A stretch of 64,000 nucleotides of DNA from Chrysopilus asiliformis. Its lineage: Eukaryota; Arthropoda; Insecta; Diptera; Rhagionidae. The notes beneath the pieces are model-generated. The model was not told the DNA's origin. It worked only from the letters and a program-made list of their open reading frames with translations, and searched no databases. The stretch covers positions 25,769,684 to 25,833,683 of the forward strand of contig OZ035961.1 in NCBI GenBank assembly GCA_964034945.1, read 5' to 3'. The position numbers were made by a program, and so were the translations under genes. This document shows positions 5,034 through 50,376 of the stretch, piece after piece (the first letter of the stretch is position 1; each line of letters begins with the position of its first letter).

Positions 5034-5512
5034 TTTTTTATGCCCGTATGGTGAAACCAAAGGGTATATTAACTTTGTCTTACCGTTTGTAACGCCAAGA
5101 TTCCGTCATCACACACAAAAATGAATTACACCAGTGTGTTTAGAATGATAAAAATAATTAATTTTTGCATGTCCGTCCGTCTGTCCGTCTGTTCGCATAT
5201 CCGTCTGTCCGTCTGTCCGTCTGTCCGTCTGTCCGTCTGTCCGTCTGTCCGTCTGTCCGTCTGTCTGTCTGTCCGTCGGTCCGTCCGTCCGTCCGTCTGT
5301 CCGTCCGTTCGTCTGTCCGTCCGTCCGTCCGTCCGTCCGTCTGTTCGTCCGTCCGTCCGTCCGTCTGTCCGTCCGTTCGTCTGTCCGTCTGGCCGTCTGT
5401 CTGTCCGTCCGTCTGTCCGTCTGTGGCGCGGATTGCGGGCGCACGGATTGAGCTACAGACATGAAAATTTGCGCAGATCCGTTTTTCGTCCGTTTTTCGT
5501 AAAAGAGAACGC
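5034..5512 (+). repeat. Interspersed repeat with CCGTCTGT simple-sequence core
   Basis: The copy opens with a hairpin-like end (CCCGTATGGTGAAACC then AAAGGGTATATTAAC), continues with AATGAATTACACCAGTGTG, then about 265 bp of CCGT/CTGT tetranucleotides (5161-5424), then a tail near GATTGCGGGCGCACGGATTG. The same modules in the same order occur reversed at about 36150-36462, and the hairpin end alone at 19636-19712. The long open frames rich in Pro-Ser-Val-Cys here are translations of the simple repeat. Class unknown, non-autonomous. Confidence 0.75.
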
Positions 5513-5897
5513 TAAGTTACCACGCTCAAAATTATTTTATTGTAATTTAAAATCCTTCATTGCGAAGACTTAGGTGTAGTTTAGTTTCATATGGTTTTTT
5601 AATTATAGAAATTTACTCGTATAAAAGTAAAAATTCTGCTGGTACCGTTTTTTTTACGACACACTACTTATTAATATAACATAGATTGACTGTAGAAAAT
5701 GGTTTTATCGGTTGAATTGTTCAACTGTTATAAACAGAAGAAGTTACAAGTAACGTTCCATGGTGGAGTTTGGTGCACAGGAACTCTGATGGTAAATTTT
5801 TTGTAGCAAACACCGAAAACCAGATCAAACCAAGTTTAGGGGGCCAAGTCAAGTTTAAATAGATTTGTTTTTGTTTAAAATTAATGGAAAACAACTA

Positions 5898-41820: not shown

Positions 41821-42244
41821 ATAGCAAAAAAATGTGATATCATTATATAGATAAATTTGCAAAAACTGAATTTGAACACAAAAAACTGCTGCACGCCACT
41901 GGTTTTTATGGCATTTTTATTATCGTGTAATTACCCGAGAAATTGGTTATTTATTTTATTAATTTACACCTTTACTTTTCCACACGCTTAAAATGCAGCT
42001 GCGGAAAGGATCAATTATTATGATCACATGCAGGTAGCTTTTATTTGCAATAAGACATTATAACTCGAATCGTTGGGTTTTCCCCAAAATTGGGTTTTAA
42101 GATATTTCAGTTAGCCATTTCTACTATGAGTCGGATTCAAGTCCTTTTGAAACCAGTCTAAATTCGTTTGATCACCAATTAAGTTCAGTTTCATGGCGGG
42201 ATCAATGAATATCGCAAATAAGAATTTTTAAAGCAAATATCACA
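41821..42244 (+). promoter_or_regulatory. torso upstream region and probable 5' leader
   Basis: An initiator-like TCAGTT at 42185-42190 lies about 55 bp before the start codon; no TATA box stands at -30. Between them a short upstream frame (ATG at 42193, stop ending 42231, 12 codons) precedes and does not overlap the torso ATG. The transcription start is inferred only from the initiator match. Confidence 0.3.
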
Positions 42245-44752
42245 ATGTTTAGGAAGCTGATTTGTTGGTTAACATTATTAATGTGTGTTAATTTGATTAA
42301 ATGTCGGGAAATTCGAAGGTATTATAAATCTGCAGCAAACGAAATTAATCAAGACTTTGAGTGTACTTCGAAGTGTTTAATAGAAAATTCACAACTGGTG
42401 TTAAAAGACTGTTTACAAAACTGTATTCCGTTAAATCAAAACAATACAGAAGTACGATTTAATAACAGTTTGAGATTAGTGCCATTATGTCGAAATGATA
42501 CCAGTTTAGTATTGGATTTTAATCATTTAACTTTAAAATCAGACGTTCGACAACAAATAAGCGTTTATGTGTTTTTTGTAGTGGAGAACAATAACCACAG
42601 TTTGACTGGTAAAAATGTTTACCAATCAAAGGACTCTTTAATTGTAATTCGAGATTTACCATCAGGAAAACTTTTCAAGGTCTCAGGACTGGTGATTTAT
42701 AAAACTGGAGAAATTTATCCTGCAGCCGATGATTTTGAAATTGCGACTTTAGAGCGAAGTTTCGTCCCGCAAATGGTTAAAAATGTTACAATGTTTAAAT
42801 TTGAAGAGAGAATGGAAGGATATGAAGCTCTAGTTACCTGGACACCAGGGCCAGACATGACTTGCTTGTATGAAATTGCGTTGTTATCAATCGAGGATGG
42901 AACGGAACTGATCTTGGAAGATGTATGGATTGATAGGTTTAAATACGCTCTACTGGTGAAGAATTTAACTTTCGATAGTCACTACCAAATCGGTATACGA
43001 GGGTTAAACGGAGACACATTTCGGAGTAGTGAAATTCGCTGGAACACATTCAAAACTCCCGCCTGTTCACTGCATTGTCCAGGAACACCTGAGGAGATCA
43101 GTGCTGTTTTAAATCACATTTACGGCAATGTGTTTTCTTTGGACATCACGTGGAACTACAGCGGACCAGCTCCTGATTATTTTCTAATCAAAATTCTTGA
43201 CTTACATGCAAATGAAACGGAACGCGACCCGAATTTAGCATTCAACGTTACTGGATCCACAAATTGCTTATTCCTTCCAAATGTGACACTACAAAGCAGT
43301 GATTTTGAAGTCTGGATAACGTCGTACGCAGCGGAACATCAATTGTCGAGCATGTTTAAAGGATCAACGAAGGAACCCCTTGAACAGTCACAGCGACAAT
43401 TCAAAATCGTTATGATTGCAATTGGTATATCCGGAATTTATCTGATACTTGGATCGATTTGTGTGGTGTGCATTTGTAAAAACACCTGCTCTACTGAAGA
43501 TTGTGTGAAGAAATCAACACCCAATAACGAAACGTTGCAAGTTTTGGACGCCCTATCGAAGTCGTCCTTGTCAATTTTTACACTTGATGACAACCAAATC
43601 CTGGATGACCGCATGGAGATCTGCAAGGGCAGGATTTCACTTCATGAGAAGCTCGGAGAAGGTGAATTCGGTCTGGTAAGGAAGGGAATTTTAAAACTGC
43701 CCGATGACAAAATATGTGAAGTTGCTGTAAAAATGCTCAAGGATAAACCATCGAGTCGAGATCTCAATCAATTCAGACGGGAGATCGAGGTTATGAAATC
43801 CGTTGGCACGCATCCAAATATTGTTAGCATAATTGGTCATTGTACCAGAGATTTGAACGAAATGTGGTTACTAACTGAATACTGTGGATTGGGAAATCTT
43901 CTGAACTTTCTACGGCACCAATGGACAAACTTGAATATTTCCAAGGTTCCTTGTAAGTTTTCCTCACAAACTTCCCTTCACATAGACGTTGAAAGCGTTT
44001 TCAACTTGGACACGTCTCTAACAAATAAATTAAAAGTAAATTACAAATCACTGGAAAACTTCGATAGACAATTACCGATCCTTCTGGAGAATAAATCTTA
44101 CTACAAATTATTAAGAAACCGGAAAAATTTTACCCACACTAACGAACCACCATACGTTATGCCGAGATATCCAATCACCAGCGAATTTCTCCTGAAGGTC
44201 GCCAAGCAAATTGCAGGTGGAATGGAGTTCCTATCAAGGAAGAAAATGGTTCACCGTGATTTAGCAGCTCGGAATGTCCTAATTTCTGATGATGGCACCT
44301 GTAAAATCGCGGACTTCGGATTGAGTCGCGATGTTTACCACGAAAATATTTACAAGAAGACAAGCGATGGAAAGCTCCCGATAAAATGGCTAGCTCTGGA
44401 GTCGATGACACATCAAGTTTACACCAGTCAAAGTGATGTCTGGTCCTACGGGATTCTGCTGTATGAAATCGTCACTTTAGGTGGAACACCGTATCCCAAT
44501 ATCTCCACGACGAATTTATTGAAGTACCTCAAAAGCGGTTACAGAATGGATCGTCCTGTTAGTTGCAGCATAACTTTATACAACTTAATGCTGTCCTGTT
44601 GGAACGAGAATTCATCCAAGCGACCGACATTCCTGGAAATCTGCAATATGTTGGACAATTTTGATTTAATGAAGATGAGCAGTTCATTGATTGGAGTGAC
44701 GGATGTCGAGTTCAAATTGCAACCATTACAACCATTTTGTATCGATATTTAA
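42245..44752 (+). CDS. tor: Torso-type receptor tyrosine kinase
   Basis: The 835-residue protein has a signal peptide (1-20), a Cys-rich N-terminal segment (CTSKCL then CLQNC, about 40-60), two fibronectin-III-like domains (about 172-265 and 276-370) with many N-glycosylation sites, a transmembrane helix (about 386-411) and a split tyrosine kinase. The kinase keeps the glycine loop GEGEFG (about 470), VAVK with Lys495, HRDLAARN with Asp672, DFG with Asp690 and PIKWLALES. An insert of about 75 residues (565-640) splits the lobes, as in Torso and PDGF-receptor kinases. The short ectodomain without immunoglobulin domains favours Torso, the receptor for Trunk/PTTH that acts through Ras-MAPK in embryonic termini and the prothoracic gland. 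The frame is unbroken and has no intron. It lies between pb and a Hox3-class gene, convergent with the latter. A related split kinase is the alternative. Confidence 0.85.
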   Translation: MFRKLICWLTLLMCVNLIKCREIRRYYKSAANEINQDFECTSKCLIENSQLVLKDCLQNCIPLNQNNTEVRFNNSLRLVPLCRNDTSLVLDFNHLTLKSDVRQQISVYVFFVVENNNHSLTGKNVYQSKDSLIVIRDLPSGKLFKVSGLVIYKTGEIYPAADDFEIATLERSFVPQMVKNVTMFKFEERMEGYEALVTWTPGPDMTCLYEIALLSIEDGTELILEDVWIDRFKYALLVKNLTFDSHYQIGIRGLNGDTFRSSEIRWNTFKTPACSLHCPGTPEEISAVLNHIYGNVFSLDITWNYSGPAPDYFLIKILDLHANETERDPNLAFNVTGSTNCLFLPNVTLQSSDFEVWITSYAAEHQLSSMFKGSTKEPLEQSQRQFKIVMIAIGISGIYLILGSICVVCICKNTCSTEDCVKKSTPNNETLQVLDALSKSSLSIFTLDDNQILDDRMEICKGRISLHEKLGEGEFGLVRKGILKLPDDKICEVAVKMLKDKPSSRDLNQFRREIEVMKSVGTHPNIVSIIGHCTRDLNEMWLLTEYCGLGNLLNFLRHQWTNLNISKVPCKFSSQTSLHIDVESVFNLDTSLTNKLKVNYKSLENFDRQLPILLENKSYYKLLRNRKNFTHTNEPPYVMPRYPITSEFLLKVAKQIAGGMEFLSRKKMVHRDLAARNVLISDDGTCKIADFGLSRDVYHENIYKKTSDGKLPIKWLALESMTHQVYTSQSDVWSYGILLYEIVTLGGTPYPNISTTNLLKYLKSGYRMDRPVSCSITLYNLMLSCWNENSSKRPTFLEICNMLDNFDLMKMSSSLIGVTDVEFKLQPLQPFCIDI

Positions 44753-46715: not shown

Positions 46716-49700
46716 TTAATTTCGGGTATAAGAATTTCTGCGATTAGTTTTGCGTGTTGCTCCCGTTGACTGGTGATAAGGATTTTCGTACCTTTTCTGT
46801 GGCGGGGGTGGATTGGAGTTGGGTTGGTTCTTAAGCCAATCTACGTAATTGTAAGGATTTGAATAAGAAACATATTTAAATATCGTATCAATTGACATAG
46901 TTGAGCTTGCCTCACCGTTATTATTATTATTCTTATTACGGGTACTATTATTAGTCGGATCAAATAACGATCGTCTTGCTGGATTGTTATCTATTGGAGG
47001 AGCCATAGTCCTTTGTGAGTTCTCATTAAAATTAGGGTTTTCTGTGTTCCTGGCATTTCGTCTTTGGAAATTATTCCCTTTTCCTGAACTACGTGATACA
47101 GGATTATTCCGGTGTGGTACAGGACTATTTTGGAGTGGTGCAGGACTATTTCGGAGTGGTGTAGGGCTATTTCGGAGTGGCGCAGGACTATTTCGGAGTG
47201 GTAGAGGACTATTTCGGGGTGGCACAGGTCTATTTCGGAATGGTGCAGGACTATTTCGGAATGGTGCAGGACTATTTCGGAATGGTGCAGGACTATTTCG
47301 GAGTGGTGCGGGACTATTTCGGAGTGGTGCAGGACTATTTCGGAGTGGTGCAGGACTTTTTCGTAGTGGTGCAGGACTATTTTGACGTGGTCCAGGACTT
47401 CTATGGTTCTCCTTATTGGAATCATCTATTGTAGTATATGTACGAAATGAGAGTCCAGTGGGAGTTACAGGATAAGTTCTTTCGGTTGGTGATTCGGCGT
47501 CAGTCGGGGGAAATTGTAGGGTTACGTTATATATTGGTGCAGTAACATCCTGCGACGCATTACTTCTGTTTTGTCTTCGCTTCCGTTCGATTAGTGCTCT
47601 TCTTCGCCGATCGACGAACCAAGTATGGACTAAGTCTTCTGGCAAGTATATCTTCCTTGCAATTTGAGCTTTCCTTTCCGCACATAACTTGTCGCTCAAT
47701 TGATATTGATGCTCCAGCTCCGTTATTTTTCGTTCAATGCATTCTTGTTCCAAAGATCTCAATGTGCTAATATTGAACTGTGGAATTTGCAACTAAAATA
47801 ATAAAAGAACAACTTTTAATTAGATTATTTATTATCTTCTGTTATTAACTAATTCTAGATTTGTTTATTCTATTTATTTGAAAAGTTACAATAGGGCTAT
47901 TCACTCTTTATCGTAGTTGATTGTAAACTCGTAGAATCGTAAATAAAATCGTAGTTTTTTGACAGTTCTCCATATAAATTTTTTTACAACGAAAACTACA
48001 ATCTACTACACCCGAAGGTATGGTAAAATCGTAGTTTTTGTCGTACTTCTAATAAAGTGAGGTTAAGGCATGTTTTGTGACATGTCAACTTGGTGCCAAC
48101 TCTAAAATGGACATTGGAAAAGCAAGTAAATTAAAGTATTTATATGATTTAGTATAAATTAAGAGTTAAATAATGCTTTAAACAATTTAGGTAAAGAAAA
48201 TAAATAACAGAGTCAAAAATTTATGACAAAACCCACAACCTCTAGTAAAGCGCTGCTCACGCTTTGTTGTACTTTTCCATCGTAGATTTACATTACAATC
48301 TACGATTTTACTATCTACGATCAAGAGTGAATTGCCCTAATATTTCCTTTAAACAATATTCTATTTATTTGAAAAATTATTTTTTCTGCCTAATCGGCAG
48401 ATTTTGAACATTGCATTTATATTTTGTGATTTTCCATGCGAATGCAATAGCATTAATTAAAAAGCCCTGTTTCGGCCCATTTAAAAGAAAAATCCAGATA
48501 AAAAATAATTTTTTTAATAAAAAAAAACAAACAAACAAACCAAAATCTATTTATTTTGAATAGTTTTCTTAATCTAAAACAACAGAAAAGCTAAGGCTGG
48601 CAATTCGACAACAAGAGAACGTGATATTATTCCCAGAACTGAAATATTTTTCCTTGCATATTTTTAGGCGCATATCAATTATTCAGATTTGTGAAGGGCA
48701 AATCTACACTATTCAGTTGTAATACAATAGTTTTCAGCTAGCTTATTTAAATAACTATGTTTTAGGTAATTAGGTAATTTGGGGTTGTTGAATCCGAGTA
48801 GTTTTGCTGCATCAGCTCTAGTTTTTGATATATGGATGGTGACTTTTGATCCTTAAACATTGAACATTGAATACTTTAAAATTCAACCATATTTTTGCTA
48901 AGTTGGTGCAATGGATATTAAAGTCATTTTAGACAACTTTTTCTTTTTAGGAAATTTAGAATTTGAATATGGCAATGGTTTGGCTGTATCAGCTCCACTT
49001 TTTAAGATATAAAGAAACAAAAACTGTTGATTTCCAATTGTTAAGCATTTAAACCAATTTATGTGTCATATCTGAAAAAGTAGAGTTGAATTAACTACTG
49101 CTTGAGTTAACTACTATAAGTTGACTACTGTCAGATTTAGATTAAGCAGCAGTTCAAAATTCACCTGTCATTTCTCAAAAACTAGATCTGATGCTGCAAA
49201 ACCACGGCCAGATTCTGATTCAGCGACCAGAAATTATAAAAAAAAGGATCTTAAATCGCACGCACTAATATAAGTGACGGCTTATGTATTTTAATCCATA
49301 AACCAATGGTGTAGTGAGTACAAAGTAGTATTTGCTCATTTCAGATAAGAATTTGTAGGCTCACTTTAACTAAACTAATAGACAATAATGTACTAACGTT
49401 CTTGTTAACGTTAGTACATTATTGTCTATTAGTTTAGTTAAAGTTTAGTTAAACTCACCCGATTGTACTGTGAATATGGAATTGATGACGTTTGGTATTG
49501 TTGGATCGGAGATTCCTTAATCGGAGCCTCTTGAACTACGGCTGCCGCCCCCTGTATTGCCGGGTCTTGCATTGCGGCCCCTTGCATTTCGAAGTCATCT
49601 GCCATTGCAGGCTCTTGCATTGGCGATCCGTGCATTGGGGATCCGTGCATTGGGGATCCCGGAACTGATGAAATTTGCATTGGCGGTCCCTGGACTAGCA

Positions 49701-49803
49701 AACCTTGCATAGGGAATCCTGGCACTCCATATCCCTGTATTGGATATGCTTGGACATGAATTCCTGGGATTGGATATCCTCCCGGCAGTGGTAAACCATG
49801 CAT
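46716..49803 (-). CDS. Divergent Hox3-class homeobox gene, two exons
   Basis: Exon 1 is 49459-49803 (115 codons; donor CGG then GTGAGT); exon 2 is 46716-47792 (acceptor TTATTTTAG, phase 0), giving 473 residues. Residues 126-185 form a homeodomain that aligns without gaps to a Hox homeodomain: L16, Y20, L40, E42, V45, W48, F49 and R53 are kept, but position 51 is Asp (codon 47610-47612) instead of the invariant Asn, 50 is Val, and the basic arm with Arg5 is lost. Exon 1 is Met/Pro/Gln/Gly-rich with MHGSP/MQG repeats; after the homeodomain come about 14 NSPAPLR heptapeptides (about 246-346), then an Asn-rich tail. One intron just before the homeobox is the usual Hox layout. Same strand as pb on its Hox3 side, so I infer a zen/bicoid/Shx-type Hox3 derivative. 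A spliced leader is possible (acceptor-like TTATTTTAG just before the ATG). Exact orthology is open. Confidence 0.8.
47100..47398 (-). repeat. 21-bp coding minisatellite in the homeobox gene
   Basis: About 14 in-frame units of 21 bp (plus-strand form AGGACTATTTCGGAGTGGTG plus one base) encode NSPAPLR-type heptapeptides. Variation is mostly at one residue (Leu/Phe/Pro). Frames on other strands across it are shadows. Confidence 0.9.
47894..48337. mobile_element. 444-bp TA-flanked MITE in the intron
   Basis: Ends GGGCTATTCACTCTTTATCG / complement GGGCAATTCACTCTTGATCG flanked by TA (47892-47893, 48338-48339). ATCGTAG / CTACGAT motifs recur inside in both orientations. Lies just upstream of the exon 2 acceptor. 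Confidence 0.75.
49363..49444 (-). repeat. Perfect 38-bp hairpin next to the splice donor
   Basis: Arms 49363-49400 and 49407-49444 are exact reverse complements over 38 bp with a 6-base loop (CTTGTT on the plus strand). In transcript order the stem starts 14 nt after the exon 1 donor of the homeobox gene. No transposon ends are apparent. Confidence 0.9.
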
Positions 49804-50082: not shown

Positions 50083-50376
50083 AGCCCAATTCAGACTAAT
50101 GATTACGATTACGATTGCGATTACGATTACGATTGCGATTGCGATTGCGATTACGATTACGATTGAGCTTCCTCGACCAATAAAATCAAAGCATTCCTTT
50201 TCCTATCGTTGAAAGCTTTGATCTCATAGGTCGAGGAAGCTCATTTGTAATCGCAATCGTAATCGCAATCGTAATTGGAATCGTAATCGTAATCGTAATC
50301 GGAATCGCAATCGCAATTGTATTCGCAATCGTAATCGCAATCGGAATTGTAATCGCAATCGTTAGTCTTAATAGGG
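50083..50376. mobile_element. Foldback element with GATTRC hexamer arms, copy 2
   Basis: Ends AGCCCAATTCAGACTAAYGA / complement ACCCTATTAAGACTAACGA with TTA on both sides (one-base ambiguity on the right). Hexamer arms of GATTAC/GATTGC flank a stem TTCCTCGACCAATA ... TAGGTCGAGGAA and loop like those of copy 1 at 40903. Frames of alternating Asp-Tyr/Cys here translate the hexamers and are not genes. Confidence 0.8.

Follow-up and report, generated by a model that had tools for sequence, protein, structure and literature searches.

We analysed a 64-kb stretch of the genome of Chrysopilus asiliformis (contig OZ035961.1, here called C2, positions 25769684–25833683; hereafter the window), a snipe fly (Diptera, Brachycera, Tabanomorpha, Rhagionidae), and found a homeodomain gene in the Hox3 slot, between pb/Hox2 and Dfd/Hox4, that has aspartate at homeodomain position 51 (the Asp51 gene). 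Its position, intact gene model, kept core and lost DNA contacts are direct observations. We give an even chance to the reading that it is a diverged, fast-evolving Hox3/zen duplicate, whose homeodomain would be folded but devoid of the usual base contacts and would act through protein contacts, as HOPX does.

An Asp51 homeodomain

A preliminary description of this DNA had reported an ungapped homeodomain at residues 126–185 with Leu16, Tyr20, Leu40, Val45, Trp48, Phe49 and Arg53 in place, and all of these residues were verified. Pfam matches a Homeodomain to residues 137–180 (E value 1.1e-6; 28.7 bits, cut-off 22.9). Also confirmed are Asp51, Val50 and the lack of Arg5, which is replaced by Glu5; the Asp51 codon, GAT (47612–47610), is one base away from the Asn codon AAT. 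The domain further carries Cys8, Thr47, Arg52–Arg55, Leu57 and Ile58. A reading error at the Asp51 codon is judged unlikely, since the primary assembly, idChrAsil3.1, has a quality value (QV) of 64.0 (429.05 Mb, 41 scaffolds plus the mitochondrion, five chromosomes, as stated in PMC12371324) and since Asp51 is only one among many altered contact residues.

Homeoboxes were read in the window and the 200 kb to its right and in 60 further homeobox pieces of the genome. A whole-genome homeodomain survey, in which 150 of 175 candidates were scored, yielded at least 109 matches, among which the locus of the Asp51 gene scores 32.7 bits. The sequence of 66 matches was read (the 60 fetched pieces, the Asp51 gene, and the neighbouring zen, c71, c77, c84 and Dfd); the other 43 are unread. 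Thirteen of the fetched pieces stop at an exon end before position 51, and the remaining 47 all have Asn51, as do zen, c71, c77, c84 and Dfd. Asp51 is therefore seen in the Asp51 gene alone, that is, in 1 of the 53 snipe-fly homeodomains readable at this position, the other 52 having Asn.

Asn51 is likewise in place in all 108 proteins that the snipe-fly zen returned from a database of 5.8 billion proteins (the zen search) and in 26 of 27 proteins of a bicoid search, the 27th being without helix 3. The zen-search rows were excised by a pattern that includes Asn51; all 108 proteins contained it. Gln50, Asn51, Lys55 and Lys57 occur together in 108 of 108 zen-search rows, where the Asp51 gene instead has Val50, Asp51, Arg55 and Leu57.

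Retention of the core and loss of the contacts

We scored a position as kept when the residue class of the Asp51 gene is shared by half or more of 114 Hox/zen rows. On this measure the gene keeps all 12 core positions but 3 of the 14 DNA-contact positions (Fisher p = 4.9e-5), in agreement with the preliminary description, which proposed altered or absent canonical DNA binding. The less diverged c71 and c77 each keep the class at 12 of 12 core and 12 of 14 contact positions. The position lists used for these counts and for the decay runs are what we take to be the core and DNA-contact positions; they were fixed before counting.

We simulated neutral decay by mutating the snipe-fly zen homeobox to 13/60 identity in 4000 runs. 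On average, 7.1 of the 12 core classes survive and 4.75 of the 14 contact classes; the complete core survives in 0.05% of the runs, and the 60 codons stay free of stops in 58 of them (1.45%). When protein sequences are made to drift to matched identity, the zen-profile score of the Asp51 gene is attained from three zen starts in 0, 8 and 2 of 1500 runs each, and from two bicoid starts in 8 and 5. The corresponding numbers for the bicoid-profile score are 0, 0 and 0 (zen starts) and 25 and 2 (bicoid starts), each per 1500. The simulations argue against long neutral decay, but not against very recent loss, and the fold looks to be under selection.

AlphaFold2 guided by 20 zen-search relatives predicts three helices (H8–32, H38–48 and H52–83), with a predicted local distance difference test score (pLDDT) of 79.5 and a predicted template modelling score (pTM) of 0.60. 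A Foldseek search with this model gave 464 matches in the PDB; among the 50 matches listed, almost every title names a homeodomain protein (best E value 0.0056). A homeodomain fold is thus plausible in the model. In this model and in one made from the single sequence, the first helix begins ahead of homeodomain position 1; in ordinary homeodomains, the DNA-binding arm that precedes helix 1 is disordered.

Outside the homeodomain, the protein has a basic stretch, RRRR..ERKRR, a basic tail following the homeodomain and an array of heptads, 13 of 14 of which contain Ser-Pro.

Class of the gene

The names lab, pb, zen and Dfd were given from homeodomain sequence and place. Five homeobox genes occupy the Hox3 slot between pb and Dfd: the Asp51 gene, zen, c71, c77 and c84. 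A canonical zen, to be looked for right of the window according to the preliminary description, is indeed present there, 16 kb away. It has Gln50, Asn51, Met54 and Lys55 and, by gene model, three exons, and its IVDRLL resembles the A-box of zen.

Class profiles, made from small and uneven training sets, give the Asp51 homeodomain 31.8 bits for bicoid, 30.3 for zen, 22.8 for NK, 22.7 for POU, 17.9 for HOX, 14.5 for SIX/TALE and 12.6 for PRD; 2000 shuffles reach at most 10.5 bits on the bicoid and 11.8 bits on the zen profile. Scored row by row, the best zen row has 27.9 bits, the best bicoid row 25.1 and the best of the other snipe-fly homeodomains 23.7. In a BLOSUM62 ranking over 47 homeodomains (42 fetched snipe-fly homeodomains, zen, c71, c77, Dfd and Drosophila bicoid), the snipe-fly zen comes out on top with 71, followed by Drosophila bicoid with 64 and the next row with 62. 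A maximum-likelihood tree of 56 rows is saturated and leaves the Asp51 gene on a tip branch of 8.81 without a supported place. Constraining the tree costs 1.30 log units for a grouping with bicoid, 1.81 with the snipe-fly zen and 5.99 with c71 and c77, and approximately unbiased (AU) tests reject none of these groupings (p = 0.457, 0.402 and 0.28, respectively).

Membership in Hox3 is suggested by position and profile, not by the tree. The earlier proposal of a fast-evolving Hox3 derivative accordingly stands in part: the Hox3 slot, the best scores on the zen and bicoid profiles and the improbability of long neutral decay speak for it, whereas the phylogenetic check gave no supported placement. 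Orthology to the Shx genes is not supported, because the snipe fly is brachyceran and Shx is reported from Lepidoptera (PMC9977156).

Resemblance to bicoid

Ile13, Ala32, Arg54, Arg55 and Ile58 are common to the Asp51 homeodomain and bicoid, and are rare or absent in the 108 zen-search rows. Arg54 and Arg55 occur together in 26 of 26 bicoid rows and in none of the 108 zen-search rows, but TALE-type rows in the snipe-fly genome also carry both. Lys50 and Asn51 are present in the same 26 bicoid rows, where the Asp51 gene has Val50 and Asp51. Megaselia and Lonchoptera bicoids also have the Glu59 of the Asp51 gene, yet this residue is frequent in the zen set. Six of 22 bicoid-diagnostic residues are matched (shuffle p = 0.0027), more than in any of 46 other snipe-fly homeodomains (next, 5), and the identity to Drosophila bicoid, 19/60, is the highest of 47 rows. 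The Drosophila sequence used is what we take to be that of bicoid; its homeodomain is identical to PDB 1zq3 over a stretch of 61 residues.

In the tail, STMSIDTIF resembles the bicoid motif TMDTI by eye, but ranks 1910 of 19543 against shuffles. The motif YIRPYL is missing from the Asp51 protein, as it is from all but 9 of the 27 bicoid rows. In simulated drift from three zen starts, 16%, 5.5% and 5.7% of runs come to a bicoid-minus-zen score like that of the Asp51 gene. Orthology to bicoid is thus not established: the C-terminal motif has the rank given above, the tree provides no placement and drift can reproduce the profile difference. The residues Arg54, Arg55, Ile58 and Ala32 are suggestive only. 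PMC6177261 describes bicoid as a gene found only in Cyclorrhapha; the snipe fly, as a member of Tabanomorpha, is not cyclorrhaphan. A canonical bicoid may lie elsewhere in the genome, outside the window and the 200 kb to its right, where 43 of the 109 homeodomain matches are unread.

Gene model and surroundings

The Asp51 gene consists of two exons on the minus strand, with a spliced product of 473 amino acids (Table 1). The start ATG of exon 1 sits in the context GACAAAATG, directly preceded by an acceptor-like ATTATTTTAG (by eye), and the exon encodes degenerate repeats rich in P, M and Q. The splice acceptor of exon 2 is TTTTATTATTTTAG/TTG (reading TTTTAG/TTG), and a candidate AATAAA lies about 130 bases past the stop codon (by eye). 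Within the 264 kb made up of the window and the 200 kb to its right, only two stop-free runs are longer than the open frame of exon 2. The in-frame codon score of exon 1 is 0.335, compared with a maximum of 0.169 over 3000 intergenic windows; its adjacent frame is also high, at 0.273. We found no second copy of the gene in a genome search that scored 90 of 500 candidates: beyond the gene's own two exons, 30 matches are confined to the repeat part, residues 229–365.

Table 1. Features of the Asp51 gene and of the surrounding Hox cluster; plain numbers are window positions
Feature	Position	Strand	Remarks
Exon 1	49459..49803	-	115 codons from ATG; open frame up to consensus donor CGG/GTGAGT
Intron 1	47793..49458	-	1666 b, phase 0, GTGAGT...TTTTAG; 10 codons 5' of homeodomain
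Exon 2	46716..47792	-	358 codons + TAA; homeodomain, NSPAPLR heptad array, Asn-rich tail
Homeodomain	47583..47762	-	60 codons, Pfam PF00046; protein residues 126–185, ungapped
Asp51 codon GAT	47610..47612	-	From sequence; one base away from Asn codon AAT
21-nt tandem array	47106..47399	-	In frame; 14 heptads of SPAPLRN type, direct-repeat family D1
lab	C2:25.62 Mb	-	Named from homeodomain sequence and place
pb homeobox	C2:25.70 Mb	-	YPWM exon begins near window 7360
Intronless kinase gene	42239–44749	+	Between pb and Asp51 gene
Asp51 homeodomain gene	C2:25.817 Mb; C2:25816399-25819486	-	This analysis
zen	C2:25.836 Mb	+	Canonical homeodomain
c71	C2:25.841 Mb	+	Divergent homeobox gene
c77	25.847 Mb; C2:25847129-25848252	+	Divergent homeobox gene
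c84	25.854 Mb; C2:25853483-25854585	+	Divergent homeobox gene
Dfd	C2:26.010 Mb	+	Named from homeodomain sequence and place

The intron contains an inverted repeat (49363–49444), 14 bases inside from the donor, whose 38-bp arms match perfectly around a 6-base loop and which folds as RNA with -56.5 kcal/mol (z = -13.8) and may be a fold-back insertion or influence splicing. It also contains an insertion (47891–48341) with terminal inverted repeats of about 25 bp (TAGGGC[TA]ATTCACTCTT[TG]ATCGTAG), which resembles a miniature inverted-repeat transposable element (MITE) and of which no further copy was found in the 264 kb. Upstream of the gene, at 50085–50376, lies a large inverted repeat of GATTACGATTGC-type hexamers, with 96-nt arms that are 86% complementary.

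Among the other genes of the slot, c77 and c84 are near-identical tandem copies with 14 differences at aligned coding bases and RRAK in helix 3, and c71, which adjoins them, represents a third divergent type. The kinase gene is an 837-residue intronless frame for a receptor-type tyrosine kinase. It has exon-sized matches of 65–70% identity (one of 40%) at C2:102.725-102.733 Mb, which suggests a retrocopy of a multi-exon kinase. At 5109–5570, a simple repeat array is open in several frames, with translations of CPSVRLSV type.

Duplications of zen in other flies are reported in a survey of 243 insect species (PMC10914929); Chrysopilus, Rhagio, Tabanus, Haematopota and Beris are not named in the text of that survey. 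By title, we found no paper on Hox3 in Rhagionidae, although one could have been missed. A literature search for natural homeodomains lacking Asn51 brought up a paper on SATB1 and reviews of HOPX.

Proposed function and alternative explanations

If the Asp51 gene is a Hox3/zen duplicate of the kind proposed here, its homeodomain would still fold as a three-helix domain and, given the basic stretch, would probably be nuclear. With no Arg3/Arg5 arm and with Thr47, Val50, Asp51 and Leu57, the usual base contacts would be gone. The protein would most likely act through protein contacts, binding or titrating other regulators, by analogy with HOPX, the partners being a guess, and the Ser-Pro-rich tail, predicted to be disordered, would form a second interaction surface. 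As for zen genes, the site of action would most likely be the early embryo or extra-embryonic tissue; the tissue, too, is a guess.

Several observations weigh against this explanation. The intron is of phase 0, whereas zen, c77, c84 and probably c71 have a phase 1 intron just upstream of the homeodomain; with differing phases, the introns are not evidently the same. The zen A-box, IVxRL, is missing from the Asp51 protein, as compared with its presence in 51 of the 108 zen-search proteins, a set that includes non-zen Hox proteins. Residues 90–260 found no relative at an E value of 0.01 among 256 scored candidates from the same database that was used for zen. Since the search method requires shared five-residue words, distant relatives may exist. 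A PDB search with the single sequence ranks DUX4 first (E value 1.5e-4, two stretches), followed by HOXB1 (3.1e-4) and bicoid (0.0021). No Foldseek match falls below 0.001, and single-sequence AlphaFold2 yields two long helices and no homeodomain (pTM 0.45), so the model of the fold depends on the zen alignment. Since the core is what led to the gene in the first place, the contrast between core and contacts is in part an effect of ascertainment, and both lists of positions are our own assignments. Drift alone would take away as many contacts (3 of 14 kept, mean 4.75); with the core kept well beyond drift and the contacts near the drift level, the contacts look unconstrained rather than specially destroyed. 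Finally, codon usage gives the coding frame of exon 2 no preference, and pN/pS in the heptad array is 0.75–0.88 when one degenerate end unit is counted.

It is unlikely that the protein is a conventional DNA-binding transcription factor whose specificity has changed, one in which Arg53–Arg55 and the basic tail grip the backbone and Val50 and Asp51 read a new site. Arg52, Arg53 and basic residues at 54 and 55 are retained, followed by the basic tail, and a Hox3 homeodomain has altered its specificity before, through Q50K in bicoid (PMC6177261). Nevertheless, the class is changed at 11 of 14 contact positions, including both arm arginines, Asn is kept in every other readable snipe-fly homeodomain, and N51A in Bicoid abolishes target expression (PMC10911119). 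If the gene had recently become a pseudogene, or were being lost as a duplicate because selection on it is relaxed, this would account for the missing relatives, the unspecific codon usage of exon 2 and a heptad pN/pS near 0.8; some Bombyx Shx copies cannot encode functional proteins (PMC10914929). We consider such a fate unlikely, given 473 open codons, good splice sites and a complete set of core classes that neutral decay so rarely leaves, in 60 codons that it seldom leaves free of stops; a very recent loss stays compatible with these numbers.

The bicoid-like residues raise the further possibility of an independent RNA-binding factor that has lost the DNA contacts and gained Arg54, which Bicoid needs to repress caudal. 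In keeping with it are the five shared residues, the diagnostic matches and the identity described above, together with the de-repression of caudal by Bicoid R54A (PMC10911119). The same source reports, however, that N51A weakens caudal repression as well, drift from zen attains the bicoid-minus-zen score in some runs, zen rows outscore bicoid rows singly, the C-terminal motif is not significant and YIRPYL is absent. With the snipe fly lying outside the group to which bicoid is said to be unique, we regard such a factor as improbable. That a non-cyclorrhaphan fly independently made it from a Hox3 duplicate, dropping DNA reading (Asp51, Val50, no arm) and keeping or gaining the RNA-facing Arg52–Arg55, is very improbable. 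There is also a slim chance that the gene is not derived from Hox3 at all and is another homeobox gene inserted between pb and zen. The unplaced, long tip branch, the differing intron phase and the ranking of DUX4 and HOXB1 above bicoid would fit an insertion, and insertions do occur at the locus, as the adjoining, likely retrocopied kinase gene indicates. Yet both Hox3 profiles stand at least 7.5 bits ahead of the rest, albeit with profiles of differing size, and the slot already has four other homeobox genes.

Comparison with known systems

The Asp51 gene shares its slot beside pb with zen, and the snipe-fly zen is its best BLOSUM match. It differs from zen in its low identity (13/60 to the snipe-fly gene), its opposite strand and its lack of Gln50, Asn51, Met54, Lys55, Lys57 and the A-box. 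Drosophila zen2 is likewise a divergent Hox3 copy beside pb (PMC7188484), but the zen2-named rows of the zen search have Asn51. Since the zen/zen2 duplication is placed within Schizophora (PMC7188484), the snipe-fly copy would be independent. With bicoid, also derived from Hox3, the gene shares its highest profile score and the five residues named above, but not Lys50, Asn51, YIRPYL, a significant C-terminal motif or a cyclorrhaphan host. The lepidopteran Shx genes are fast-evolving Hox3 copies that also lie between pb and zen (PMC4207634, PMC9977156); they belong to a different insect order and are likened here by descriptions, not by sequence.

The vertebrate HOPX homeodomain folds, is likewise without the residues for DNA contact and regulates by way of partners, SRF and HDAC2 among them (PMC9179269). 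HOPX is an unrelated small protein (PMC6997107) with one residue inserted between helices I and II, whereas the snipe-fly homeodomain is ungapped and part of a 473-residue protein. The likeness is thus one of work, not of membership.

Hox3 is the insect Hox slot that has most often yielded new genes (zen, zen2, bicoid and Shx), and the zen, zen2 and bicoid rows checked here retain the Asn51 contact. The idea put forward here is directly testable, because RNA-seq data exist for the species (run ERR13093633, from an adult) and its relatives can be sequenced. If a bicoid-like reading of RNA were true, the two jobs combined in Bicoid would be separated in nature. If instead the duplicate acts through protein contacts as proposed, a Hox-cluster gene selected for its fold and not for reading DNA can quit DNA binding altogether, as HOPX has in vertebrates.

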